Assembly: GCF_037975245.1 (NCBI RefSeq)
Contig: NC_092564.1
Span: 10,950,484 to 11,014,483, forward strand
DNA: 64,000 bases
Direction: 5' to 3'
DNA from: Apostichopus japonicus
Lineage: Eukaryota > Echinodermata > Holothuroidea > Aspidochirotida > Stichopodidae
The notes under the pieces are model-generated. The model was not told the DNA's origin. It ran no database searches and saw nothing but the letters and a program-made list of their open reading frames with translations. How positions within the stretch are numbered: the stretch's first letter is position 1; each line of letters begins with the position of its first letter. Position numbers and translations under genes: made by a program. Below, in pieces: positions 1-58,400 of this stretch.

Positions 1-825
1 TATGAAACCAACTGTGGCTGGCCTCGAACTCGACCGAGTCGTCGGGGAACATGACGCATTTCGGGAAGGGGGCGAACGCCCTCCCCCCCCCCCCGAGTAT
101 ATTTTTTTTATGATATCGCTAGTAATTTCAAAGGAGAAAATGCTTAGATGCAACTCAGAAGGCATGGGAGTGTCATTTCCAGCGATCTGGGAGGCCTTTT
201 TCGGCCAAAATTTTCTTGTATGCTTCGCGCCAACTCGTGGTGGCGCTACGCTTAGATAGTTTGCATACAGGCTTCGCCCGTCCCTTGACAAATTATTCGG
301 TACGCGCCTGTTCGAATTTGTAAAGCAAACAGCAGATATGACATCATATCAGTGAGCATGAAAATGGCGGTTCCAGGTTGAACAGCCTCAAAACTGTCGA
401 TGTGCGTAGTCATAGGAACCCAATTTGATTTGGGGGGCTGTAACGACTTGCCCGAAAGCATAACCTAAATTTTTCGCTAATATGTTAAAGTCAATATTAT
501 ATAAGCAGCATCGGTTATCATCGCATGCCATCGTGTACCGTACGGTCCGTGGAAATTGCGAAGTATACCTCGGGATGCTAATGTAAACAACGAAATGTCT
601 TATGTAGATATAGTAAAAGCACGGAGGTCCAATTATGTCAAATTCTCTTTTACATTAGTAATGGCGAATAAGTCGGCCAAGCTTATAGGACTTTATTTTA
701 ATTATCAAGGAGATTCATTTCCTTTAGCTACATCATTGCAATTTATTTTTCTTTCAGTAGCCCCCCCCCCCCCCCCACCCGCATCCTACGCCTATGTATG
801 TTGTGTTCGGTTTCGGAAATATGAG
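1..825 (+). repeat. Dispersed repeat copy 1 (left end outside window)
   Basis: This stretch matches 2165-2863 over most of its length, with substitutions and indels. The shared blocks run from the opening gaaacca...tggctgg, through the poly-C run near 82, the hairpin module at 132-257, the CGCGCCTG/TTCGAATTTG junction near 310 and the ATGTAAACAACGAAATGTCT block near 580, to the poly-C run near 762 and its CCTATG end. The match begins at base 1, so the element continues to the left. No transposase or reverse transcriptase is visible. The short open frames inside it are not believable genes. Family unknown; it carries hAT-like material inside it. Confidence 0.8.
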
Positions 826-1488: not shown

Positions 1489-2164
1489 AACTGATCGATT
1501 CTGACTAATGTGCCGCACTGACGTCACATCTCGACGTAAGTCGAATTTTACGAATTTTCTGGTAAGACTCATCACAGAAACTAAAATTCATCACAGGGCA
1601 AGGCTTAGAAGGGCGATAGAAAGACAAAAAATGATATGACCTGAAGGACTGGATCACAGTTTTTACTAAAAAAATCCTTTAAATAAAAATGTACATATAT
1701 AAACATTTGTTATCATGACTTGAAAGTATCCTGCATATCAGGCGCATGTCCAGGGAGGGCGTTGGGGCGCGCGCCCCCCGGGTAAGGAAAAGAGGAGAGA
1801 AAAAGAGAAGAAAAAAGGAAAAAAGAGGGGGAAAAAGAGGAGGAGGAGAGGACGGAAGGGGAAAGAAAAAGAAGAAAGAGAGAAAAGGGAGAAAAGGAGG
1901 GAGTAAAAGAAAAACGCCGAGACACCGGGAAGAGAAAGAGGAACAGTGACATCATTACAGCGCTGATCCCCATTATATACACAGGGTAGCCAGTGACGGA
2001 TCAGGATATCGGAAGGGGCGTGTACCTCACCCTACCCCTTTACACCGACAACTCCATTTTTTACGTTTCCAATTTTACCTCTCTCACTCATGATATATAT
2101 ATAATATATATGGTCTATTATAACGCGTGTGTGTGTATACGCCTTAAAAAAATTGTAGAATTGT

Positions 2165-2863
2165 GCTATGAAACCATTTGTGGCTGGTCTCGAACTCGAC
2201 CGTGTCGTCGAGGAACATGACGCATTTCGGGAAGGGGGCGACCGCCCCCCTCCCCCCTTCAGCATGTTTTTTTATGATAGCGCTAGTAATTTCAAAAAAA
2301 AAAGTGCTTAGATGCAACTTACAAAGCCTGGGAAGTGTCATTTCCAGCGATCTGGGAGGCATTTTCGGCCAAAATTTTCTTGTACGCTTCGCGCCAACTT
2401 ATGGTGGCGCTACGCTTAGATACTTTGCCTACAGGCTTCGTTCCTCGCTACGCGCCTGTTCGAATTTGTAAAGCAAACAGCAGATATGACATCATATCAG
2501 TGAGCATGAAAATGGCGTTCCAGGATGAAAAGCCTCAAAACTGTCTGACTTGCCCGAAAAAAATAACCAAACCTTTTTTTGCGCGCGGAGCGCGCGTTCA
2601 ACATGTTAATGTCAATATCATATAAGCAAGCATCAGTTATTACATCGCATGCCATCGTGTACCATACGGTTCGTGAAAGTTGCGCAGTATACCGCGGGGT
2701 GCTAATGTAAACAACGAAATGTCTATATGTAGATGGAGAAAAGCATGAAAGTCCAATTATGTCAAAACTCTCTTTTACATTAGTAATGGCGAATTAGGGG
2801 CTGCACCCCCACCCCCGCCTTGTACGCCTATGTGTATAGTGTTCGCTTTCGGAAATATATGGG
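2165..2863 (+). repeat. Dispersed repeat copy 2
   Basis: Second copy of the repeat seen at 1-825, in the same orientation. It keeps the poly-C run, the hairpin module at 2308-2423, the CGCGCCTG/TTCGAATTTG junction near 2453, the ATGTAAACAACGAAATGTCT block near 2705 and the GCCTATG end. Because both copies share sequence on both sides of the inner CGCGCCTG end, the inner hAT-like end was present before the outer repeat was copied. Confidence 0.8.
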
Positions 2864-3344
2864 TTTTTTTTATTTCCTTCAACGAAGTTTTATAATAGTC
2901 GTTATAAGAGGTTTTAATATTTCTACACCAATAAATTAACTGTGTCTGTATTTTCGCAAATTTCTGACCAACATTCTTCATCACACTTCCCTCTACTCGT
3001 GCAACTTTGACCGGTCTGTAGGGGGTTGAAGGAGGTTTTTCTATATTGGTTGTCCATTGATGAAATTTTGTACAACATTATGGGTATGTTTTGAAGTGAG
3101 TTTATTCACGATAAATGTGAATTTTTAAATTCTGAACGAATAATGGGCTTAAAACATTGAAAAGTGGGGTTGACGGATATTGTGGGCCGCGACGTAGAAT
3201 CACCTACAAAAGCAATGATCCACAGGACATGCGATGAGTTCGAACATGATTTGTGAATGATGACAATCTTCAAAAAGGTTATGGATGGAAAAAACTATTG
3301 GGAAATACTTGGTTCTCAGGCAAAAAGTGTACATCTGGTTGGTC

Positions 3345-3491
3345 ATTTTCAAGCCTGAGAAGTGCCATTTCCGGTGATCTGGGTGGTATCAAAACAAGAA
3401 ATTTTCCTGTACGCTGCGCGCCAACCGATGCTGGCGCTCCGCTTAGACAGTAATTCGCGCCCCGGGTTAGAAAATCCTGGATACGCCCCTG
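3345..3491 (+). mobile_element. Right half of a hAT-like MITE with hairpin module
   Basis: A third copy of the hairpin module (GCGCCAACC...GGCGCTCCGC core) is followed about 40 bp later by a terminal-repeat-like end, ATCCTGGATACGCCCCTG. The two complete MITEs at 17.9-19.0 kb have the same order: module, short spacer, TIR. Confidence 0.55.
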
Positions 3492-6298: not shown

Positions 6299-8473
6299 TC
6301 AGGAATCTTTCTTTGACATCCTTGCGACTATGCAGTAGAAAGGATGGCTGAGATTCGGCCATTCTCTCGAATCCTCTACCCACACATTCTTCTTCAAGTC
6401 AAGTTTGTGAGCCTTGCCTGTCTTACTGGCATCCGCGGTCGTAGTTTCAAGGCCATTCTCGCCACCGAAGACATACAATGTCCCATTATTCGAAACGACC
6501 TGATAGCTCATACGTCCTTCCGGGAGCTCTGGTCCAAACCGCCATTCGTTTTCGTCTGGGTTGTAAATCTCGACAGATTTCAACATGTTTTCTGGATCCT
6601 TGTCGTCCTTAGCCACATTGCCACCAATGACGTATATTTCACGGTTGAGTACCCCGACGCCAGCACACGATCTCGGTAAAATCATGCTAGCTACGGTCTC
6701 CCACGAATCTATACGTGGATTGTAACAGTGGACTGTGTCTAACGTCTGGTCGTTCGTTTCACCACCGATACAGTACAATCGACCAAGTACTGCTGCCGAA
6801 CAGTGTTGCTTGATAGGCTTGGGTAAAGGTGCTATAAACCTCCACGAATTGGTAGCTGGGTCGTAACACTCCGCACTATCCAGAGCACCCTCAGCATTGC
6901 AACCTCCTGTGGCATACACGGTACCATCCATAGATGTCATGCTAAACAGCGATCGTTGCACATTCATCGACGACCTTGGCAGCCATTTTCTTTCAAAGTG
7001 ATCGTAGAGAAAGATCCCGCCTCGTCGATAAGATGTGTACGTACGTCGACTGCTGCCGTACTCGGGAGGTTTTCGGCCAGCCACATATATATTATTTTCT
7101 CCGGTAACTGCGCATGCTGCAAACTCCATCATGTCCGGTAGTGCCTTGACACGATAGGTATCACTGTTCAGTGATGCTGCGATAGCCTCAGTATGATTGG
7201 CTAAAAACACAAACATATCACTAAAGGGCATCCCTTTACGGGTGACTGTGTTGATATTACTCAGGTCGAGGTCTTGCCTTCTTTCCCTCAGTACATGGTA
7301 TTGGAGAGCGCGATCAATCATCTGCTGACATGAGCTGTTGCTAGACACGATGCGATCACGCTCAACCACGTCATGGATAAAGTATGGACTCGTTAAAGCA
7401 AACCGGACATTACGCAAAACATCAACGAGATCGTACTTTCTATTATCGATATCACCTCTTATCCATGTTAAGGCAGCTTCGTAGACGGTTTCCTCTCTGT
7501 CGACATTCAGGTCATCCTGAGAGAGAAGGTCGATAACCTTATCTTTGGAGAGACTTAAGAACTCCTCCTCCTTGAATACCTGGTTGAATCGATCACAAAC
7601 CAGCTTCTTGGATTGTTCCTGGAGATTATTACAGTCATGAGCCGCAGCAAAGAAATATATACCGATGCAATTACCAACGGTCACATGATGTTCCAGGAAT
7701 CGTGCACATGCGTCCCGAAGGTTGTTAATTTGAAACATGTTAACCGCTAGCATCAGTCCCTGTACGTTGTCCTCGTTGATTTCAATTTCAGCAGAATACG
7801 CGTACTCTAATATAAGTTTCATCGATGCTGCATCGATTCCACCGATCGAAATTCTGTCCTGATGACTCTCAACGAGTCCACTTGAAAACATGGCGTGAAA
7901 ATATGGACTGCATGCAGCTAATGTCAAACGATGGCACTTGAATTCTTGGTCTTCAACTTCCAAGATAACATCAGTTAAAAGGTCGTCTTCCCACATTTTA
8001 AGCATCTCTTTTAATACAATTGATTTATGTTTTTCGTCTACAAACTTGTATTTGTCTGGGAAGCAACCCATTTCATCAGCTTTATCGGCAACTTTGCTGT
8101 CAGAATCTACACTATTGGCTGATACTAACTTTCCTTGTGATGATCCAGAACCTCGTTTGTCGTCCAATCCTTCGCTAAACTTTTCAAGGCTTGCCAAAAC
8201 AGATGCCAACGACGCACTTGCGGATGAGGCGGAAGATGAGCCTTCCCTAGCCTCTCTATCTCTGGAACTCATGCTGGAGTAATTTGTGGAAAATGAAAAA
8301 GAAGCAGATGGAGAGCTAACGATCATGCTCCGTCTGTCACGTGGTCTGTAGCTAGGTACGGAGTAGTCACTGTCAAGGAGTGCTGCTGCTGCAGATCCAT
8401 CCATGACCGACTTGGCGTTACGTCTCATCGGAGCCGGTGATCTGGTTCCGGAAGCTGATTTGTCTGGATCGGT
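6299..8473 (-). CDS. BTB-BACK-Kelch (Kelch-like) protein, main coding exon
   Basis: An intron-free reading frame of 709 codons from ATG at 8428 to the stop at 6299. Residues 1-120 are Ser/Ala-rich and poorly ordered. Residues about 143-249 form a BTB domain (LLTDVILEV, then FKCHRLTLAACSPYFHAMF). A BACK domain follows to about 355, with the family's L..D.L.V..E..V..A...W pattern. Residues about 435-705 hold Kelch repeats with their GG doublets (YATGGC, YCIGGE, YVIGGN, YVFGGE). Proteins of this build usually recruit substrates to Cullin-3 ubiquitin ligases; that role is inferred from the family. The frame stays open for 15 codons above the ATG, to a TAG that is itself part of a good 3' splice site (cttccattag) at 8474, so the mRNA may enter here from an upstream exon. 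I cannot name the orthologue. Confidence 0.93.
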   Translation of the reverse strand, partial: TDPDKSASGTRSPAPMRRNAKSVMDGSAAAALLDSDYSVPSYRPRDRRSMIVSSPSASFSFSTNYSSMSSRDREAREGSSSASSASASLASVLASLEKFSEGLDDKRGSGSSQGKLVSANSVDSDSKVADKADEMGCFPDKYKFVDEKHKSIVLKEMLKMWEDDLLTDVILEVEDQEFKCHRLTLAACSPYFHAMFSSGLVESHQDRISIGGIDAASMKLILEYAYSAEIEINEDNVQGLMLAVNMFQINNLRDACARFLEHHVTVGNCIGIYFFAAAHDCNNLQEQSKKLVCDRFNQVFKEEEFLSLSKDKVIDLLSQDDLNVDREETVYEAALTWIRGDIDNRKYDLVDVLRNVRFALTSPYFIHDVVERDRIVSSNSSCQQMIDRALQYHVLRERRQDLDLSNINTVTRKGMPFSDMFVFLANHTEAIAASLNSDTYRVKALPDMMEFAACAVTGENNIYVAGRKPPEYGSSRRTYTSYRRGGIFLYDHFERKWLPRSSMNVQRSLFSMTSMDGTVYATGGCNAEGALDSAECYDPATNSWRFIAPLPKPIKQHCSAAVLGRLYCIGGETNDQTLDTVHCYNPRIDSWETVASMILPRSCAGVGVLNREIYVIGGNVAKDDKDPENMLKSVEIYNPDENEWRFGPELPEGRMSYQVVSNNGTLYVFGGENGLETTTADASKTGKAHKLDLKKNVWVEDSREWPNLSHPFYCIVARMSKKDS

Positions 8474-17892
<9,419 letters not shown>

Positions 17893-17900
17893 TCTGAACT

Positions 17901-19013
17901 CAGTGGCGGCGGAACCGGGGGGGGGCTTGGGGGGCTCAGCCCCCCAATAAAAAAGTTGAGGGGCAAATGCATGATAAGCCCCCCCCCCCCCAATATTTAC
18001 CAAGGCTCCGAAACGTGCATCTGCCCATTTTTCAATGCATACTTGTCGATCTGTCCGATGCACACGTTACTATATAGGTGTAATAATTTAAGTAGTAATT
18101 GCTGGGGGATCCTGGTCCCTCGGCCCGTCCCCTGGCTATAGACGACATTGTCACCCCAACCGCGTCTTCACGTCCCGTGAAAAGTGGAAACAGTGGGTGT
18201 GAGTACCGCTAAGCGTAACACAACTTCGTCTTAGGCCAATGACTTGCCTCATTTCAGCCAGTTCTCCAACATCCCCTTACTTAGTGGCGGAGCGTCCATA
18301 TATACAGTCAGGGGGCGGATCCCCCCCCCCCCCTCCTGACGGACTCAAATGGACTGCTGGCGCCCTTTTCAGCTTTTCACTATTTTTAACTTATTCGCGA
18401 TTATTGACTATTTTATTGCGCTCTCATATACCTATTGACATTTGTCATATTCTGTTGGTGTAAGTTTTCCGACAAAATGGCGACGACACCTATTTATTTT
18501 CCGTTTATCTGCAAATTAGCAAGGCCCGGAAAGGGTCATTTCCTGCAATCTAGGGAGTAACTTTACTCAAAAATTGTCTGTACGCTCCGCGCCAACCTGT
18601 GGTGGCGCTCCGCTTAGATAGTGTCGAAAGCGCCCCTACAGACCATTCTTGCTCCCCCCCCTGACCAATACCCCTAGCTCCGCCACTGCCCTTACTACAC
18701 TCAAAAACGTCTTTGCGAGTACACTACGAGTAATAGCTACTCTCTTAAAACACCATCGAATATACAAATTACAATGTTTTTACAGACTTTTACGTGCAAT
18801 CTGAGAAATTGCAGGCTTGAGACCCATATTTTAGGGCTAGGTATTCGCAGCATAAAACACTCGGGAAGTGCCGTTTCCGGCCATCTGGGGGTTTGAAAAA
18901 ACCCAACATTTTCTTGTACGCTCCGCGCCAACCGATGGTGGCGCTCCGCTTAGATAGTCTCCACACATTAGCCCCCCCCCCCCCCCAATAATTTTTCCGT
19001 TCCGCCGCGCCTG
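17901..19013. mobile_element. hAT-type MITE (outer element of a nest)
   Basis: The left end is CAGTGGCGGCGGAAC. The right end, reverse complemented, is CAGGCGCGGCGGAAC, with 13 of 15 positions equal. It is bounded by a perfect 8-bp direct repeat, TCTGAACT, at 17893-17900 and 19014-19021. Eight-bp target duplications and CAG-starting TIRs are typical of hAT elements. Without the second element inside it the original insert would be about 698 bp. No transposase frame remains, so it is non-autonomous. It contains a hairpin module at 18850-18957 near its right end and poly-C/G runs near both ends. Confidence 0.9.
18282..18688. mobile_element. hAT-type MITE (inner element, 407 bp)
   Basis: Ends are TAGTGGCGGAGC and, reverse complemented, CAGTGGCGGAGC (11 of 12). 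A perfect 8-bp duplication, CCCTTACT, lies at 18274-18281 and 18689-18696. It sits wholly inside the 17901-19013 element, so it inserted later. It carries a hairpin module at 18525-18620 and a C13 run just inside the left end. Two different members of what looks like one family are therefore stacked here. Confidence 0.92.
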
Positions 19014-19021
19014 TCTGAACT

Positions 19022-24900: not shown

Positions 24901-26777
24901 GCTGTGATGCAGTACAAGAGAAACTATTCACTGATCATATAGCAATGTACTTTACAAAGTTTGAGAATCGCGCAGCTGGCCCTAGCCTAGGATTGTGGTT
25001 ATGTCTATGACATTTAATTATGAAGGAACAAGTAGTATATAATCGATATTTCAAATCAATTGACAAAGAATGAATCTTCAAGAAAAGTTTGATGAGTGTC
25101 CTGTATCAAGTTTAATAGTCTCTTCTATTTATATAACATGGCATTGGTAGCACTTATGGGGCTTCACACTTGAGAAGGATTGGGTGGGGAGGTGAAGGGA
25201 AGGGAAAGAGGAGGTTTGGTGAGCCTTGTGGAACAGAGCATTGTATTACATAGCAACAGACAATGTGAATGTAGTTTTATTTTGAATGTAAAATTCTTCA
25301 GGATAATTGGTAGTAAGAAATAAATCTTAAGCAAGCAAATTGTTGAAACCATTGGAAGAAGAAATGAGAAGCTCTTAGACTGCATGATGACAGAGCTATC
25401 TCTCATCAAGTAGTTGTTGATCTCTATTATAATATTGTGAGGCTTCTTTAGATCTTACTTTGGGCCAAATCCTCCTTACTGTTTGTTTTGGTACAGTATG
25501 TTAAATTACTCACCCATTATTTCATCAACACTTTTGGTTGCCAACAGTTTTTTCATTTGTTCCGCAGGACAAGCATTGAACACTGCTAGGGCCAAGCAAA
25601 CTTCCATTTGCTCAAAGAAACTCAGTGAGTCAAACTCAAAGACTAGTCTCTTCACTAGCTGTGTGGGTGGTTTCAAATTAAGGACACTCATTCCAAAAGC
25701 AATCGTCTGAAGTTCAGACACTTTGAACTCTGTCATGTGACTACTCAGGTGTTCAATGATTGCATCAAATAACTCCATCTCTGGCATATGAAGGAGCCCA
25801 AAACACTTGACGATTGCAGCTACTTGTCTGCTAGAACATTCCCTGAGGTGTTCTTTGCAAAAAGATGCTACCTCTTTGCAGAGCACATAATTCTGAAACT
25901 TTGATATCCTCATATTATTCAGCAATCTAAGGAGCTGAAAGACCTCCCACTGGCTTCGCTGTTCCTCTACCTGGTAAGATACTGATCGTAAAACCAGAAA
26001 AGATCTACGGGCAGATGATACGAAGTAACTGGAGATGTCTACTAAGTCCTGAAAAGAAAAATCATCAATTAGCTCAAGTGTCTTATCCTCGAGTTTCTCC
26101 ACGAATGATGGAGAAAGGTGAAGTGATGTTTTGAGGAGCCGTTTCAGGACAAATGGATTGTTCATCTCCTTCCATCTCAGCTCCAGAACCCTCAATGCTT
26201 CTTGGGCGAGCAACGCTGAGCCTGGATGTCCGGAGAGGAGCCTGGTGTTACAGACAAGCAGAGCAAGATGACGTACAGCCACTCCTCTCAATCGTTGACG
26301 ACACTCCTTCTCCAGAAGTCTTACTGTAGGAGTTTCCACTTGCTGAAGCTTTAATATATTTATGATTGAGTTCACCAGGCTCTCTGAAGTTAACTTTGTC
26401 AAATCGGTTTCAATTGTGCCAAGTAAAGAAACGAATCTTTCATCAGAAGACAAGTCACTTTGCTCTGCATTTGAGAAAAGATTAGAATTTCTTAATGCAC
26501 TAAGGGCTATGGATGCTTGATTTCCATTCAGCTCATTCGTATGTACAAATGCCAGGATGTCCTCAAATTTCTGAGCAGACTTCAACTGGGATATGACATT
26601 GGAAGCAACATCATCTCTTTTCACTCTACTACCTTCAGCTGTTGAAGAAGATGACATTTGTCGAACTTGAGATAAGTGCGAGTCCCCACAGCATGATGAG
26701 GCTTCAGAAAGTCCTCTCTGATGAAGTCTTAGAGCTCTGAAGGTTGGGCGAATGATTCTCAAGGCTCTCTCCATCAT
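21995..26777 (-). CDS. FASTK-family protein with FAST and RAP domains, five coding exons
   Basis: Coding exons on the minus strand are 26777-25514, 24618-24376, 23925-23808, 23285-23171 and 22087-21995. Each junction has GT and AG borders and the phases join exactly, giving 610 residues. The N-terminus (MMERALRIIRPTFRALRLHQ) is Arg-rich without acids after residue 3, as in a mitochondrial presequence. Residues about 350-415 look like the FAST_1 region. The second exon opens the FAST_2 region (LKLLQLNTYAKLECPGYKGP). The last two exons form the RAP domain (RVAVVVNGPNSYL to ISFEEWSNLK). FASTK-family proteins bind and process mitochondrial RNAs, and that role is inferred here. The length suits FASTK or FASTKD members, but I cannot tell which. 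The gene appears complete. Confidence 0.92.
22449..22467. repeat. T19 homopolymer in the last FASTK-family intron
   Basis: A pure T run (A run on the gene strand), perhaps the tail of an old retroposed insert. The G/T-rich strip at 22295-22430 beside it shows no coding sense. Confidence 0.6.
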
Positions 26778-26819
26778 TAACTTGACATCCCTTTGCTTTC
26801 ATGTAACAGCTCTCAATCA

Positions 26820-32068: not shown

Positions 32069-35000
32069 CTACACGCAACTATAGACCACATCTGCTTCTT
32101 CGTAGATAACGGATGCGTACATCGTGCTCTCGGAAGAGGCTGCTTTCACGTCTGGCTCAGTTATAGCACTTGCGATAGATTCCGGCGGAACCACGACATC
32201 TGTAGTAATCGACAAGTCATCTTTTGGTCCATGGCTTGGTAGTCGCTTCCTGCGAGGAATCGTCCACGAGGCGTAGAATCCCTATCAAAAATCAGGCAAA
32301 TAATATTTTGAGAAATTATGAAGTTTTTTTCCTGGAAATGAAATACCCGATTCAGGGATCTCGACACACGTAAGAGATTTGCCTAACTCATTGCGCCCAA
32401 AACCAAATTCTTCCGATATTGTGGATATTCAACTTACAAGACATATCAAGTGAGTAATGACTTCTGATTGCCAGTTTATACCACTTTTTGGGAATTATTA
32501 CATGTAAAGCCGTTTGGAAGTCAGTCTGCAAAATTTGGGAAAAGGGGAGGAACGAAACGTCCCCGTGACTACGGTCCTTATTGGCATAATCCATAAAAGT
32601 AATATTTCAGAAAAGGCACTATGATACAATGGTATCGACTTGAGTATAGTTCATTTGTCAACTAAAAAGAACAGTTTTAGTGAACTAAAACAGACTAAGG
32701 CAAAACAGACTAAGGCATGGGCCCACCAAACTCTCGGGTGGGGAACCTGCACATTGCGGCCCCGGATGTTAGTGCTGCCGCGGCTGTCTGTGAGTTTCGT
32801 ACGGTTCATATTCTAGTCTCATATATTCTAAATTACCTAGCTGGAAAACCCGCATTAGACAGTTACAATATGTTATACAAGGGTCTCAATAGAAGGACAA
32901 CCGAGCAAATTCGGCACGCCAAACATTTCTTTCCGGTCCACGAGAAAGCCCCCCCCCCCACAAAAAACGGGCCAAAGTCTTGAACTCAGCAGGAATTGCA
33001 GATCCAAGCCTTAGATTTGAGCACCCAATCGGCCCACCTTTCCGAATTATTACCCAATAGGCAAGTAATAGTTTGAATCTGTATGCATACTAGCCCTTGG
33101 ATCTAACCAATGTTTTCTCTGGCTTTCGTAGAAGTTGAGAATCTGATCGTTTTATACCAGGGGTTTCCTAACTGGGTTCATGAACCTCTGCAGGCAGGGG
33201 GTGCGTGAGTCCATCCCAGGAGGTTCGTGAGACGTTTCTGAATTTCAAAACTAGAGTACATTTTTGTTGAACTAAAATCTGATATACCCTATAATTTAGT
33301 AATGCACAAAAGTCGTACCTACTGTATATCGACAAACTCTTTTCGCGTTCCATACGCATATGTTGCCATAGTAGTACGGTACCGTGCATGTGATAAATAA
33401 CTGTATTATGAAACAGACACAGGCTGTTATGCGTATTATAGTATAATAATGACTCAGATCGTGTCTCGAAAAGTTGGAGGTTCGTGGATAACTCTGATAT
33501 CCACAGGGGGTTCGTGGGGGCATAAAGTTAGGGAAACCCTGTTCTATACAATGCAAACTGAGTCACCCTATAGGCTATACTGACCTCCGGCTGGGGTTGT
33601 GCAGTTTGGTAAATAGTATGGTAGAAGATTAATATTGCTCCAATAACACAGGAGGATACTTGCAACGAATATGTGCAGCACAGGATAGCATATGGGCCAC
33701 CAAACGGCGCAGATGAGCCAGCACCAGTGGCCAGTAAGAAACCATCAGTTTCATTCTGTGCAACATGTAAAATAGAAGGAAAGTAATTCTAAAAGAATTT
33801 CGGCTATAATATGTATTATTACAAAATAAATAAATCAGTAACAGAAAACTAATATTGGAATGAATTTTGACTTAACAGAGCCGCAAAGGAGTTATGGTTA
33901 AAGCCATGCAAAATGACATCACCAGACACCAGGGCCTTTAACGTCTGGTGGGGTGTGGGGGGGGGAGAATAGTTAGGGAAATGGGTAAGCATATCTTACA
34001 ATAGTATACTTATGTCCAACGATGAAACATGCATGTATCGCACTTATGTGGACAATTTACAGTCTCAACGAGAAATGTCAAGTCATTCGTATTTTTACTC
34101 TCACACTTTTTACTTTAGAAAACTCACGTCAAATTTGTCGACCGTAACTCTTTGGTGCTAAATGTATCATGAGCCTTAATACTTATGTAATTAAGTTATT
34201 ATTAAATAGGTAATTATGGTGAATGTTTGTGATGCGGAATCACGCAACTTCAGAAATTTACTGTAAGTTATTTGATGCAGACAAATTAGGACTAAGTTAC
34301 TTAAAAGGAGACACAAACCTCGCGCGGGGAGTTGTTCTTCAAAAACATCTCTGTCATTTATAAGCCAAAGATCATGGTTGGATGTGTGTTCCGTATAAGC
34401 CAATTAACCATTAACACTTCCATGCTTTGACTTTTACTAGTGGGCTTTATTTAGCTTTGTATCCACCCCGTTTCCGGTTACCATTTAAAATATATTAATT
34501 TATGGAAAACCAAGTTGCTGTCGATATAAAACTATAGTACGTTTCAACTAAAAAGGATGAATTTGACGTCTCATTGCATGTCTATACTTACTGTTGTGGT
34601 AGCATTGGCTTCCGGAGACACTTCAGGTATATTGGATACAATGATTAAGATGAGACAGGTTGCTGTTGAAACCGTAACTATGCAAGATGATACCATGAAA
34701 CACTGTAACTGTAGGTATAGGACAAAAACAAAGTCGATGGGTCTATTGCAGCCAAACCTGCAATCCGATATACTATATATGTATTGAGTACATATGGTCA
34801 TGAGAGCAATTAACTGGATAGAGAACGAATAAGTTACAAAGGTTATGATAATAGGGGAGGAAAGGGGTTAAGGAGGTTGTAGGGGGAAGACAGAAAACCC
34901 GGCGGTGGTTTTCTCTAAAAGAATTTTAGTTATTAAATGTTACAGTGTTACATTGCAAATGTCCTCTTTCTTTCTCAAAATTTCGACGAATGTATTTTCT

Positions 35001-37524: not shown

Positions 37525-40012
37525 TTTTGAACAAAATCTTCCAAAACCGTCCCGCAGCCTCGTGTTCGAGTTTCAGTTAGACCTGTTCATGATAACTACA
37601 AACAAACATTTTAATGTGTATATACTCTGTATTTCGGAAACTATCCCATTGTATACTGTTATATAAATACTTTAATACAAACTACTGCAGTTGAACAATT
37701 TGACACCCTTAAACACTTGAAATATAAGTGTTATAACTAAGGCAATTTGCAATATTGTCATTCGTTCTGCAACAGATTCAAGTGTTTTAACCAACACTCA
37801 ATTACGGAAGTACAAACGCGCATCACATTGAAGACTTACACAAATTACAAAAGGAAACAAAATCTGAAAATTAATCGCTGTTTAGCTCTTGCTACCATCT
37901 TTTAACAAACGTCTATATTCTGAAATGTATAGTCTTGACGAGATATAGCCTTTTAAAGCTGTCAAATATTGAATTCACCTTTGATACGGCCAAGGTAATT
38001 TTCAAACTTCGGTATAGCTAGTGTGCAAAACGGTCATTTTATGAGGTTTAATGACATTTTGTTTTATAAAGCGATTATTACAAGCAGTGGCGTAGGAGGG
38101 TACTTTTGCGTGGGGGGCTGAAGACTGATGGCCAGCCTGGGGGAGGGGTATAAGGGGAGGGGGTGTCCCCCTCCCCTTTGGAATTTTTTGCATTTCCAGG
38201 TGGCCTCAGATGCAATTTGGTGCAATATAGCACACTTCAACACCCACTCCATTTTGTAAACTTAATTTTGGCCTCGTTTTTGAGCTCTTCCGAAGTAACA
38301 ATAGCGACTTATTATTCCGAATTGCAGCTTATTAATAAGAGATAAGTGTTTGTATATACACAATTAAGAATGCAAAAGTCAATGGAAGGCTGCATATACA
38401 TGCGACCACACGCCTTAAAGCCCGCCGCACACTTGCCCGACTGATCACGACAGGGCCCGACTCGACCGTCATTACCTGTACAATCGTGGATAGTCGGGTA
38501 GTGTGCGTGTTAAGACTACGACTTATCTCGTCTTTGTCAAGTTTTAGGTCGCATCGGTTTCACTGTCCGGAAAACGAAATATATAGCGTTTTCCTGACTG
38601 GCAATCGGCAGGGTTCGGCGGTTTACGACCAAAAAAATAGAAGAATATTCTGGTTACTCAATTTGATCGCTTAGCAAAATTGCTGGAAATGTACCGAATC
38701 TGTAGGTGAAAACCATATACTCATAACATTTTGTATTGCGAGGATACGAATTTTAAAAGAATTGTGATAGTTTGTCAAAAAATCTGGCAATGGCAGTATA
38801 TGGATGATGTCATCAGGGCAATTCAGCTGAAAAATGTCTTTGTTTTTCTTTCGTATTTGTCATTCATTGATCCACAGAGGACTAGAATATTCTATGAAAA
38901 CATTACGTTTTCATTAAATTACAGAGAACTTTAATTTTTTTTCATGGAGCTATATAATTCAAAACGTAAACTGAAAACATGGCTTTCATAGTACGCGATT
39001 TGTAGTAACACGGTTGGTGTCGGTAAGGGGTAAAAAGCGCTGGTCAGATCTTTGACAACATTAGCCCTTGCAACTTTTCCTAAAGTGTCGGTGGGCGTGT
39101 ATAATGCCACACTATTTGGGTGAATATATGACACCTCCTCAGCCATGTGTATACATATGGTTATTTATTGTAGGCCTACTCACGGTCAGTTACCACTATT
39201 TACGCCTCTCATATCTACTTCTAACACAATGTTACAAATATTCGCGTCGTTTTTATTGACTTCTGGGACGTATCTTTTTTTTTTTGCCGCTGTTATTATT
39301 ATCCTACGCCCTTACCTATTATTACACCTTTGTAAAATTTGATTCATTTGACGCGGTTGTTATCAACTTGTTTCTTTTCGCGTTCCATACTAATATGATT
39401 GATTAACTGCGAACAGCTTCGCTATTCAGCACTAATCATTTCGTTGCATAGCAACGTTTGCCCATGTGACACCACTGATTGAAGACTATCAAAACTGATC
39501 GATAAATGGAACGTTGTCTTGACAGGTTCCATGATTGTGTGTGTGAAAACGAGGTCATGTAGGTCCTAGGCTAGCTACTAATAATATGTGACGGAGCCTA
39601 AGCCTTGGAACTTAAGACAGACTTAGAACAGCGATAAAGGCTAAAACAGTGCTGTTTAGCATGTAACTTGGTCCATGCAAAATGAAAACAATCTAACCAA
39701 TTCATCATCACGCCACATCGTCTCTTTTCAGGTCTTCAAACACCATCACTAACAAACAGTGACTGAATTTCAAGTAACGAAATCCATGGTAGCCTAACCT
39801 AACGTTAGGCCAACACTTGTAGTAAGTTCCGTAACAAATGCATACCTTAGTTGTAAGTTAAACCAACAGTAGCCTAAGCTTCGCGCAAGTAACTCTGTTT
39901 GGTAAACTTGCAGAATTTCTGATGCACACGCTTGCTAGCACCTAAGCCTAGCCAAGTATGGTAACTTTGTGTGGCCCTAGTTAAGGCTTTAGTTCTTGTA
40001 TGTAGTAAGGCC
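37525..40012. other. Upstream DNA between two divergent genes
   Basis: No coding exon is recognised. At 38086-38180 a CAGTGGCGTAGGAGGG left end plus G- and C-rich runs marks an eroded hAT-like element without a right end. At 38420-38515 an inverted repeat (CGCACACTTGCCCGACT against AGTCGGGTAGTGTGCG) looks like the core of another small element. Confidence 0.45.
39442..39456. promoter_or_regulatory. X-box-like palindrome (possible RFX site)
   Basis: CGTTGCATAGCAACG has two RFX-type half sites, GTTGC and GCAAC, with a 3-bp spacer, one base shorter than the usual X-box layout. It lies about 4 kb before the first recognised coding exon of the plus-strand coiled-coil gene, whose real transcription start is unknown. 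The match could be chance. Confidence 0.3.
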
Positions 40013-55400: not shown

Positions 55401-58400
55401 CTACAGTAACCTAAACTTCATACAGAATTAAATAACATTGCAAATGATGCAAAGGTGTAACATTGAAGGCATCAAATGTCACAAAGTTGGAACCCATATT
55501 TATGGAATGTGTTATTACACGTTAGACACTGCAATGTGTTTTTATGGTGTTAAGAGCAGGGTGGAGGGATGGGGAAGGGGAGGGGAGGGGAGGGGGAGGT
55601 TATTTGGGAAAGGGGAGAAATGACAAACATGTACTGTATATATCTTGTGAGAACTCTTTGTGGCAGAAAGCATATGGTGCAATAGTTTCAATGGTTCAGG
55701 GGTAAGTATTTGGGCACTACAGAGATTTCATTATATTTCACTGTATTGGGAAAGGGAGGGGAGGGGAGGGGAGGGGGAGGGGAGGGGAGGGGAGGGGAGG
55801 GGGAGGTTATATGGGAAAGGGGGAGAAATGACAAACATGTATATATCTTGTGAGAACTCTTTGTGGCAGAAAGCATATGGTGCAATAGTTTCAATGGTTC
55901 AGGGGTAAGTATTTGGGCACTACAGAGATTTCATTATATTTCACTGTATTGGGAAAGGGAGGGGAGGGGAGGGGAGGGGGAGGGGAGGGGAGGGGAGGGG
56001 AGGGGGAGGTTATATGGGAAAGGGGGAGAAATGACAAACATGTATATATCTTGTGAGAACTCTTTGTGGCAGAAAGCATATGGTGCAATAGTTTCAATGG
56101 TTCAGGGGTAAGTATTTGGGCACTACAGAGATTTCATTATATTTCACTGTATTGGGAAAGGGAGGGGAGGGGAGGGGAGGGGGAGGGGAGGGGAGGGGAG
56201 GGGGAGGTTATATGGGAAAGGGGGAGAAATGACAAACATGTATATATCTTGTGAGAACTCTTTGTGGCAGAAAGCATATGGTGCAATAGTTTCAATGGTT
56301 CAGGGGTAAGTATTTGGGCACTACAGAGATTTCATTATATTTCACTGTATTGGGAAAGGGAGGGGAGGGGAGGGGGAAGGGGAGGGGAGGGGAGGGGGAG
56401 GTTATATGGGAAAGGGGGAGAAATGACAAACATGTATATATCTTGTGAGAACTCTTTGTGGCAGAAAGCATATGGTGCAATAGTTTCAATGGTTCAGGGG
56501 TAAGTATTTGGGCACTACAGAGATTTCATTATATTTCACTGTATTGGGAAAGGGAGGGGAGGGGAGGGGAGGGGGAGGGGAGGGGAGGGGGAGGTTATAT
56601 GGGAAAGGGGGAGAAAGGACAAACATGTATATATCTTGTGAGAACTCTTTGTGGCAGAAAGCATATGGTGCAATAGTTTCAATGGTTCAGGGGTAAGTAT
56701 TTGGGCACTACAGAGATTTCATTATATTTCACTGTATTGGGAAAGGGAGGGGAGGGGAGGGGAGGGGGAGGGGAGGGGAGGGGAGGGGGAGGTTATATGG
56801 GAAAGGGGGAGAAATGACAAACATGTATATATCTTGTGAGAACTCTTTGTGGCAGAAAGCATATGGTGCAATAGTTTCAATGGTTCAGGGGTAAGTATTT
56901 GGGCACTACAGAGATTTCATTATATTTCACTGTATTGGGAAAGGGAGGGGAGGGGAGGGGGAGGGGAGGGGAGGGGGAGGTTATATGGGAAAGGGGGAGA
57001 AATGACAAACATGTATATATCTTGTGAGAACTCTTTTTGGCATTAAGCATATGGTGCAATAGTTTCCTTCCTTTGCTCAATCAGTCAAAACATGGGAATT
57101 AAAGTTAGTGCAAAATTGGTCACAGAAGCTGCTCAAAAATGTAGTCTCTTGGTTGAGAAGTTATGAAGAATGTTGCTATGGTAATAGATGCCTCATAAAG
57201 TTGGCTTAACTTGTAATATATGTTGTTGTGTTGTTTGCAACCATAAAATTACAACCATAATTATCACAAATACTTTTGCTTGAAAGGAGGATGTATGAAG
57301 TACAGTAATCTGACCCTTGACTTTATAATAAATTCCAATTCAAACAAAGAGGATGCTTTGAAACAAAAGTTTCCTTTCAATAATAGCTGTGCCATGTTCT
57401 CATTAGGTTTTTAATTAGCATATATGAGGGACTTTACTTTTAGTTTGATAGATTAAGTATTATTGATCAGATAAGTTTGTTCAATTACAACTATTGATTC
57501 TGTACCATAGAAGGTCTCTTCCCTAATCCCCTAGCATATTGAGATGAGCACTGTTCAAAGATATCAACAGAAATTGATTTTGAAGCTCCATTGAAAAACT
57601 AACAAGACAATAGTGTTGACAAAGTCCCACTCAATTTACATAACTGTAGCCTTTTGAAATTCTCTGGAGGCAACAGTTGGCAAGGGTTGACTCTGTCATC
57701 GTCGGCCTGGTCACCGTTCACGTGACTGGTCGTTAACTTTCATTTGATACATCGTAACTTCCAGTAAGGTTTAATAAAATCAAAATGCAAGAATTTGTGG
57801 AAAGATAGAGCTATTTATTTGGATTTGTTTTAATCAACAAGATTGCATAAGAGGTGAGGTACTATAAGTATATATGTAAGGACTAAATTATATATTAAAA
57901 TATACACATACAACATGTGTTGTAGGTAATGTGTTTAATGTGTTAGGACAGTAGTGTTTGAGTGTACAGTTAGCTATTTTGTAGAGCTACTTTGTTGTTT
58001 TAGTATCATTGGTTACTTAGTTCCTAAAATTAGGAGGTCAGTATCTACTGTACAGTTATATTTTGATGCCAAAAATATTATGCATCACTTTATTAATATG
58101 GTGCATTGTCAAAGCGCTTTGAAGACAACAACATGTTTTATTTTAACATTTAATTGAAGCTAGGGTTAAATCTCCAAAGTACCCAGTAATAATAAGTAAA
58201 TTTATATCACTAATGTAACTCTAGAGTAAGGGTACATTCTAAACCTAATATGTATTTGTAACACTTCATTAGTGAATTTTTTTTCTGTTACCTGAAGTTA
58301 TATGAATTATGAAGGAAATAGTGAGGTGGTTTTTTGGATGGGGGAGGGGGGGGGGGTGGCAGGTACTTTACTTCAGTCTTAAATTGTAATAGTAAAGAAG

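Follow-up and report, generated by a model that had tools for sequence, protein, structure and literature searches.

The stretch of Apostichopus japonicus DNA described here very probably represents a composite, non-autonomous hAT transposon that is present in many copies and has spread as a unit. It consists of one hAT-like element (the inner element) lying inside another (the outer element); the inner element was inserted once, ancestrally, after which the pair, 1.1 kb long, moved and multiplied together. In the window, i.e., the whole 64,000-nucleotide stretch that was analysed (C4:10950484-11014483; the genome has 35 contigs and 671.6 Mb), only the insertion of the outer element is a local event, and its duplication, TCTGAACT, records the arrival of the pair as a unit.

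Nested structure in the window

The outer element occupies positions 17901-19013 (1,113 bp; coordinates read directly), with TCTGAACT exact at both flanks, and the inner element occupies positions 18282-18688 (407 bp) within it, with CCCTTACT exact at both flanks. The features of the composite, in window positions, are as follows.

17893..17900, no strand: left TCTGAACT target duplication of the composite, a perfect pair with 19014-19021
17901..18281, + strand: left part of the outer element, with the 5' end CAGTGGCGGCGGAAC; its first 250 bp are 86.6% identical to the 5' end of a 5.5-kb hAT element
18274..18281, no strand: left CCCTTACT, the duplication from the entry of the inner element into the outer one (direct reading, aligned copies, empty site)
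18282..18688, + strand: inner element, 407 bp, a passenger with hAT-like ends TAGTGGCGGAGC / CAGTGGCGGAGC (direct reading, end scan)
18531..18625, + strand: subterminal module of the inner element, ending 63 bp from its 3' terminus
18689..18696, no strand: right copy of CCCTTACT (direct reading, aligned copies)
18697..19013, + strand: right part of the outer element (317 bp), which matches the 3' end of the 5.5-kb hAT element with 91.5% identity
18865..18961, + strand: subterminal module of the outer element, ending 52 bp from its 3' terminus
19014..19021, no strand: right copy of TCTGAACT (direct reading)

The outer ends, CAGTGGCGGCGGAAC and CAGGCGCGGCGGAAC, are identical at 13 of 15 positions and have the CAG start of hAT elements. 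The inner ends agree at 11 of 15 positions and are likewise of the CAG type; the 8-bp duplication found with them, also a hAT property, stands for one event only, CCCTTACT, which is backed by the empty site. An earlier note, made from the sequence of the window, had described one hAT-type element nested in another and a perfect 8-bp duplication for either of them; both its coordinates and its duplications proved to be exact. The composite is short, non-coding and present in many near-identical copies, as a MITE should be (longest open stretch of 86 codons, 847 junction matches, divergence of ~1.5%); 1.1 kb is long for a MITE.

A strict scan of the window, which required a perfect 8-bp duplication, CAG-like ends and an end match of at least 11/15, returned exactly two hits, the outer and the inner elements, while 200 first-order Markov windows gave 0.12 hits on average, one at most, and no nested pair. 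The same scan with looser limits gave 23 hits against a mean of 10.3, and a less specific scan gave six hits against zero to five in 20 shuffles. A 384-bp hAT-like element was also seen at 33158-33541, with the ends CAGGGGTTTCCTAACT / CAGGGTTTCCCTAACT and a duplication with one mismatch (TTTTATAC/TTCTATAC). Elsewhere in the window lie a perfect TA run of 179 bases (12499-12677), a tandem array of 7.6 copies of a 198-bp unit with GGGGA runs within it (55563-57066), and two minus-strand frames, one of 724 codons for a BTB-BACK-Kelch protein (6299-8473) and one for a FAST-kinase-like protein (25506-26798).

The pair as a genome-wide mobile family

The left junction between the outer and inner elements had 847 genome matches (408 + 439) with up to three mismatches, against none for the reversed-pattern control; these counts, like those of the empty sites given below, are matches to 28-base junctions in one assembly and not whole elements. 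The genome contains many matches to the entire 1,113 bp, with 93-97% identity (40 scored of 4,187 first-look candidates). Among the best matches, 39 copies were fetched, and 36 of them reached both ends, the three that did not span 1-1113 being left out. A perfect 8-bp duplication flanked 32 of these 36 full-length copies, with 31 different sequences; two further copies (L016 and L046) had one mismatch, and two (L014 and L020) had no duplication. Best matches are a biased sample, and so a second one was taken in list order, its copies likewise coming from exact junction matches: 19 of the 20 fetched regions were used (L116 was left out), three were not full length, and all 16 full-length copies had perfect duplications, each different from the others. 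A different duplication therefore stands at nearly every copy, and the outer CAG-type inverted ends are retained in the full-length copies.

Some composites share their flanks: L039 and L040 are identical over 250 bp on both sides, L030 and L047 share both flanks, and L014 and L016 share the right one only. Together with the two copies lacking a duplication, this indicates that some composites arose by segmental duplication. The 48 different target duplications (window included) follow no strict motif, with positions 1 and 2 deviating from the background base composition (chi-square p of 1e-4 and 5e-6).

Divergence from the majority sequence, with CpG and long homopolymers excluded, amounted to 1.46% in the outer part and 1.78% in the inner part across 17 list-order copies including the window. 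In the best matches, with only CpG excluded, it was 1.26 and 1.72%, slightly higher for the inner element (Wilcoxon p = 0.007). Such similar values point to similar ages of the inner and outer sequences as parts of one unit. An older nest was found at L011, where the composite lies inside an older outer element with the duplication GCTGAAAT, and this older outer element holds another small element flanked by TTTGCGAG.

By eye, the CAGTGGCGTAGG end at window positions 38085-38250 resembles that small element, and the 3' end downstream of a 752-codon hAT frame (C22:2240220) has the sequence CAGTGGCGTAGGAAGG; window 38085-38250, L011 and L151 perhaps show a second MITE/partner pair.

Single entry of the inner element

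Among 37 aligned full copies (window included), which were chosen for matching the whole pair, CCCTTACT was intact on the left in 33, on the right in 30 and on both sides in 27, and the remaining duplications showed base changes and one gap. The inner element thus occupies a single site in the copies read, and its intact CCCTTACT pair is inherited rather than local. The preserved CCCTTACT shows only that the pair was amplified recently enough, at ~1.5-1.8% from the majority sequence. The earlier note had taken the undamaged duplications as a sign of two recent insertions at this locus. This holds for the outer element, that is, for the pair, and fails for the inner one, because the same CCCTTACT site is occupied in copies at other loci; shared borders within one larger repeat, which the note itself had named as speaking against it, are exactly what the 847 junction matches reveal for the inner element.

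A genome search for the inner 5' end with any base except T in front of it gave 21 matches. No free inner copy was found among them: all 20 fetched candidates follow the left flank of the outer element with a base change or small indel at the junction, and the 21st (C17:92010) lies inside a composite, L043. In four of the 20, the usual form of the inner right end could not be located. This search used an exact 23-base stretch after the first two positions and was blind to copies that follow a T; free inner copies that are older or divergent may therefore be present. Similarly, no transposase-coding element with the ends of the inner element occurred among 20 hAT frames whose downstream sequence was read.

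Empty outer elements and the order of events

Empty sites are present in the same genome: the outer element without the inner one, carrying a single CCCTTACT, had 236 matches (135 + 101) with up to three mismatches, against none for the control. Forty empty outers were fetched, all from exact matches, a choice by which excision footprints could not show and older free outers would be missed. According to short marker strings, 33 of them lie in a further element, X, four in a different context, Y, and three elsewhere. In the direct flanks of the 25 full-length empties, a perfect 8-bp duplication was seen once and one with a single mismatch seven times; so few direct duplications are to be expected if most empties go back to a single old insertion in X and another in Y. 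The only clearly free-standing outer among the 40 fetched, L090, has GCTAACAC on both sides, a duplication that is slightly less certain because GCTAACAC recurs 13 bases further to the right.

Element X, the third hAT-like element, has the ends CAGTGGCGTCGCC / CAGTGGCGTCACC. Its upstream part was fetched for five copies, and both ends were examined in four, L078 with a broken outer being left out. In three of these four (L057, L076 and L084), the unit of X and outer has its own perfect 8-bp duplication (CTGCTAGT, CACTTAAA and CCCCTCGG); in the fourth, L077, the similarity stops short of the 5' end. The duplications around the whole unit indicate that a second, independent nest became mobile too.

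The outer sequences of 17 composites, 23 X copies, two Y copies and L090 were compared, 14 of the 40 empties having been left out as not full length. Five sites separate the majority of the composite outers from the majority of the X outers; relative to the Y outers and L090, the composites differ at three of the five and the X outers at two. There are exceptions: two of the 23 X outers have the composite base at one site, and a different site has the X base in one of the 17 composites and a gap in two. If Y and L090 are taken as ancestral, each nest would have its own derived changes. This pattern supports a probable single origin of each nest from an older outer, as opposed to empties produced by excision, the order of events resting on 43 full-length outers, of which only three lie outside both nests.

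The outer element multiplied when nested, both as the host of the inner element (847 junction matches) and as the passenger of X (33 of the 40 fetched copies, of 236 matches). On its own, it seems to have spread little, with one of 40 fetched empties clearly free-standing in an exact-match sample that would miss older free outers. That nesting itself made a better jumper is a rather doubtful idea with some small chance of being right; if nesting did raise mobility, this may have come from the additional copy of the module, from a length better suited to movement or from avoidance of silencing.

A candidate source of transposase

In a profile search with PF05699, 150 matches were scored among 633 candidates, and several of them lie in long open frames. 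The 900 bp downstream were read for 20 of these 150, selected because their frames were long or repeated. Two of the 20, both on C17 (L161 and L162), run into the 3' end of the outer element with 94-96% identity over the 79-90 bp covered; a third, L154, has just 68 bp at 84%. For the L162 frame, a full-length element was delimited with the help of L164: C17:6832476-6837994, 5,519 bp on the minus strand, flanked left and right by perfect TATCCGAT. Its 5' end is 86.6% identical to bases 1-250 of the outer element and its 3' end 91.5% identical to the last 317 bp, and between these matching ends lies an uninterrupted hAT frame of 796 codons with DUF4371 (E 5e-19) and Dimer_Tnp_hAT (E 4e-8) domains, in which ADETRD, YDGASN and AERSFS stretches can be recognised as putative motifs. 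L161 is without the 5' part and shares 97.7% of 609 residues with the L162 frame. Additionally, L034 and L016 carry relatives of the outer element with a different interior, and the interior of L034 is also present in the 5.5-kb element.

The outer element looks like a shortened derivative of the 5.5-kb family, and the 5.5-kb element is a likely candidate for the transposase source of the composite. The earlier note had raised mobilisation in trans and proposed looking for an autonomous hAT with matching ends; C17:6832476-6837994, with its open frame and perfect duplication, is such an element, and mobilisation in trans is judged probable in view of it. The partner is 87-91% identical to the outer ends and the composites lie ~1.5% from their majority, so the C17 copy itself need not have driven the burst.

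A course of events can be proposed from these data. Most of the outer element (~700 bp) would stem from both ends of a 5.5-kb hAT element; it would have taken up a small, related hAT element a single time, at CCCTTACT, and the filled outer would then have multiplied as a single 1.1-kb unit with the inner element as passenger. Transposase of the 5.5-kb family, supplied in trans by the C17 element or a close relative, would recognise the outer ends and subterminal regions, with the conserved end module as its putative binding place. It would cut at the outer ends and insert the whole unit elsewhere, presumably by cut-and-paste, producing a new 8-bp duplication.

Among the other frames read, a hAT-like one of 231 codons, which appears repeatedly in the PF05699 list, is followed downstream by the end TAGTGGCGGGACGG (L160, C2:28462817-28463717), and a further partner family is possible.

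The shared subterminal module

The inner and outer elements have in common a module of ~100 bp near the 3' end, 61 bp of which are 85% identical; the related ends and shared internal module reported in the earlier note are confirmed. Three further occurrences lie in the window (149-269, 2313-2422 and 3359-3451, each on the + strand), and all five are on the same strand. In the two elements with certain ends, the module ends 52 bp (outer) and 63 bp (inner) from the 3' terminus. This near-terminal position suggests that related hAT families have the module as a conserved part of their ends and that it is not a separate insert. The inner module is 77% identical to that of the 5.5-kb element, a likeness that fits an inner element derived from a related but probably separate family. 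Viral contigs and prokaryote genome contigs contained no exact matches to the module patterns used.

GTGGC was tried as a transposase-site signal and rejected: the outer element has two occurrences, a number reached by 253 of 500 shuffles, and the inner element three, reached by 17 of 500; the Hermes transposase site is now reassigned to AAGT, according to PMC10368747. A single-strand hairpin of the module was likewise no strong case for structure (z of -1.3 to -2.0, with 10-19 of 200 shuffles folding equally well).

Several neighbouring observations concern the window copies. A repeat with the module in its middle has two copies, at 1-672 and 2167-2797, with 81% identity. A possible longer element at 1739-3491, with the ends CAGGCGCATGTCCAGG / CAGGGGCGTATCCAGG and flanked left and right by CATAT, which has 5 bp instead of 8, has the same module near its 3' end and the repeat 2167-2797 nested inside. 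An element bounded by TAGTGGCGG at 1188 and 4087 was rejected, its flanks being unequal (GAATTCTT vs GCATCCCC).

Alternative explanations

Two separate recent insertions at this locus, the outer element first and the inner one later, would explain why both duplications are perfect here; this explanation can be regarded as refuted by the 847 matches to one junction and by the presence of the same inner element at the same site at the other loci read. The joint travel of the pair and the lack of a free inner copy among the 20 candidates, all of which follow the left flank of the outer element, would also suit a single ordinary element whose middle merely resembles an inserted one. Such an element deserves hardly any credence in the face of 236 empty-site matches with a single CCCTTACT and of an inner element that has inverted ends and a subterminal module to itself.

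The empty outers themselves could be clean excision products of composites rather than ancestral forms, as hAT elements excise and the 40 exact-match empties cannot reveal footprints. This is very unlikely, given that the two Y outers and L090 are without all three composite-specific bases and that, in the 23 X outers, two of these bases are absent throughout and the third in 21. Somewhat less remote, and still unlikely, is movement of the composite by a transposase of the inner element or of another hAT family instead of the 5.5-kb family: hAT frames are plentiful in this genome (150 scored of 633 candidates), and their ends are similar between families. Against it stand the two of 20 frames that run into the outer 3' end at more than 90% identity and L162, which has both ends and a duplication. 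A composite amplified as a unit, with the 5.5-kb family as the likely source of enzyme, is the explanation retained here.

Significance and comparison with known systems

When a nested element is flanked by a perfect duplication, this does not tell when it was inserted at that locus, as the whole nest may have been copied, and the present case corrects a common inference in the dating of nested insertions. Moreover, empty and filled forms, a parallel nest in another element and a candidate driver coexist, so the steps from a nest to a mobile unit can be ordered and tested in one animal. A literature search, thin on subscription journals, found no account of this nest family, its ends or its module.

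In their ends, the present elements agree with the Pegasus-like entry in the table of PMC2997013 (CAGTGGCGG ends plus 8-bp duplication), and they may belong to this hAT group. The silkworm Pegasus-like BmMITE-14 and BmMITE-16, described in the same source as separate elements of 265-431 bp, share with the present elements the 8-bp duplications and the CAGTGGCGGATT ends, the comparison being by end bases alone (PMC2997013). Hermes, also a hAT element, has an 8-bp target site and inverted ends as well, and its transposase makes extra contacts in subterminal repeats (PMC10368747). The Hermes transposase is only distantly similar to the 5.5-kb frame (best PDB match E 0.012, over the C-terminal 53 residues). 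The Anopheles P-MITEs belong to the P superfamily and reside with P elements; as here, a MITE and a related element with matching subterminal regions and 8-bp duplications are found in one genome, and, unlike here, the "composite MITE" of that source mixes two ends and involves no nested insertion (PMC1562414).

The closest parallel is MER6/MER6A of mammals, which PMC6887750 presents as a Tc1/mariner composite MITE with a SINE inside. In both cases, a non-autonomous DNA element captured another mobile element and was amplified with it as a unit. Unlike MER6, with its Tc1/mariner host and SINE passenger, host and passenger are both hAT-like here, and an empty form, a candidate full-length driver and a second composite (X with the outer element) are present in one genome. 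Composite MITEs are thus a known kind of element, of which the nest described here is a clean new case.
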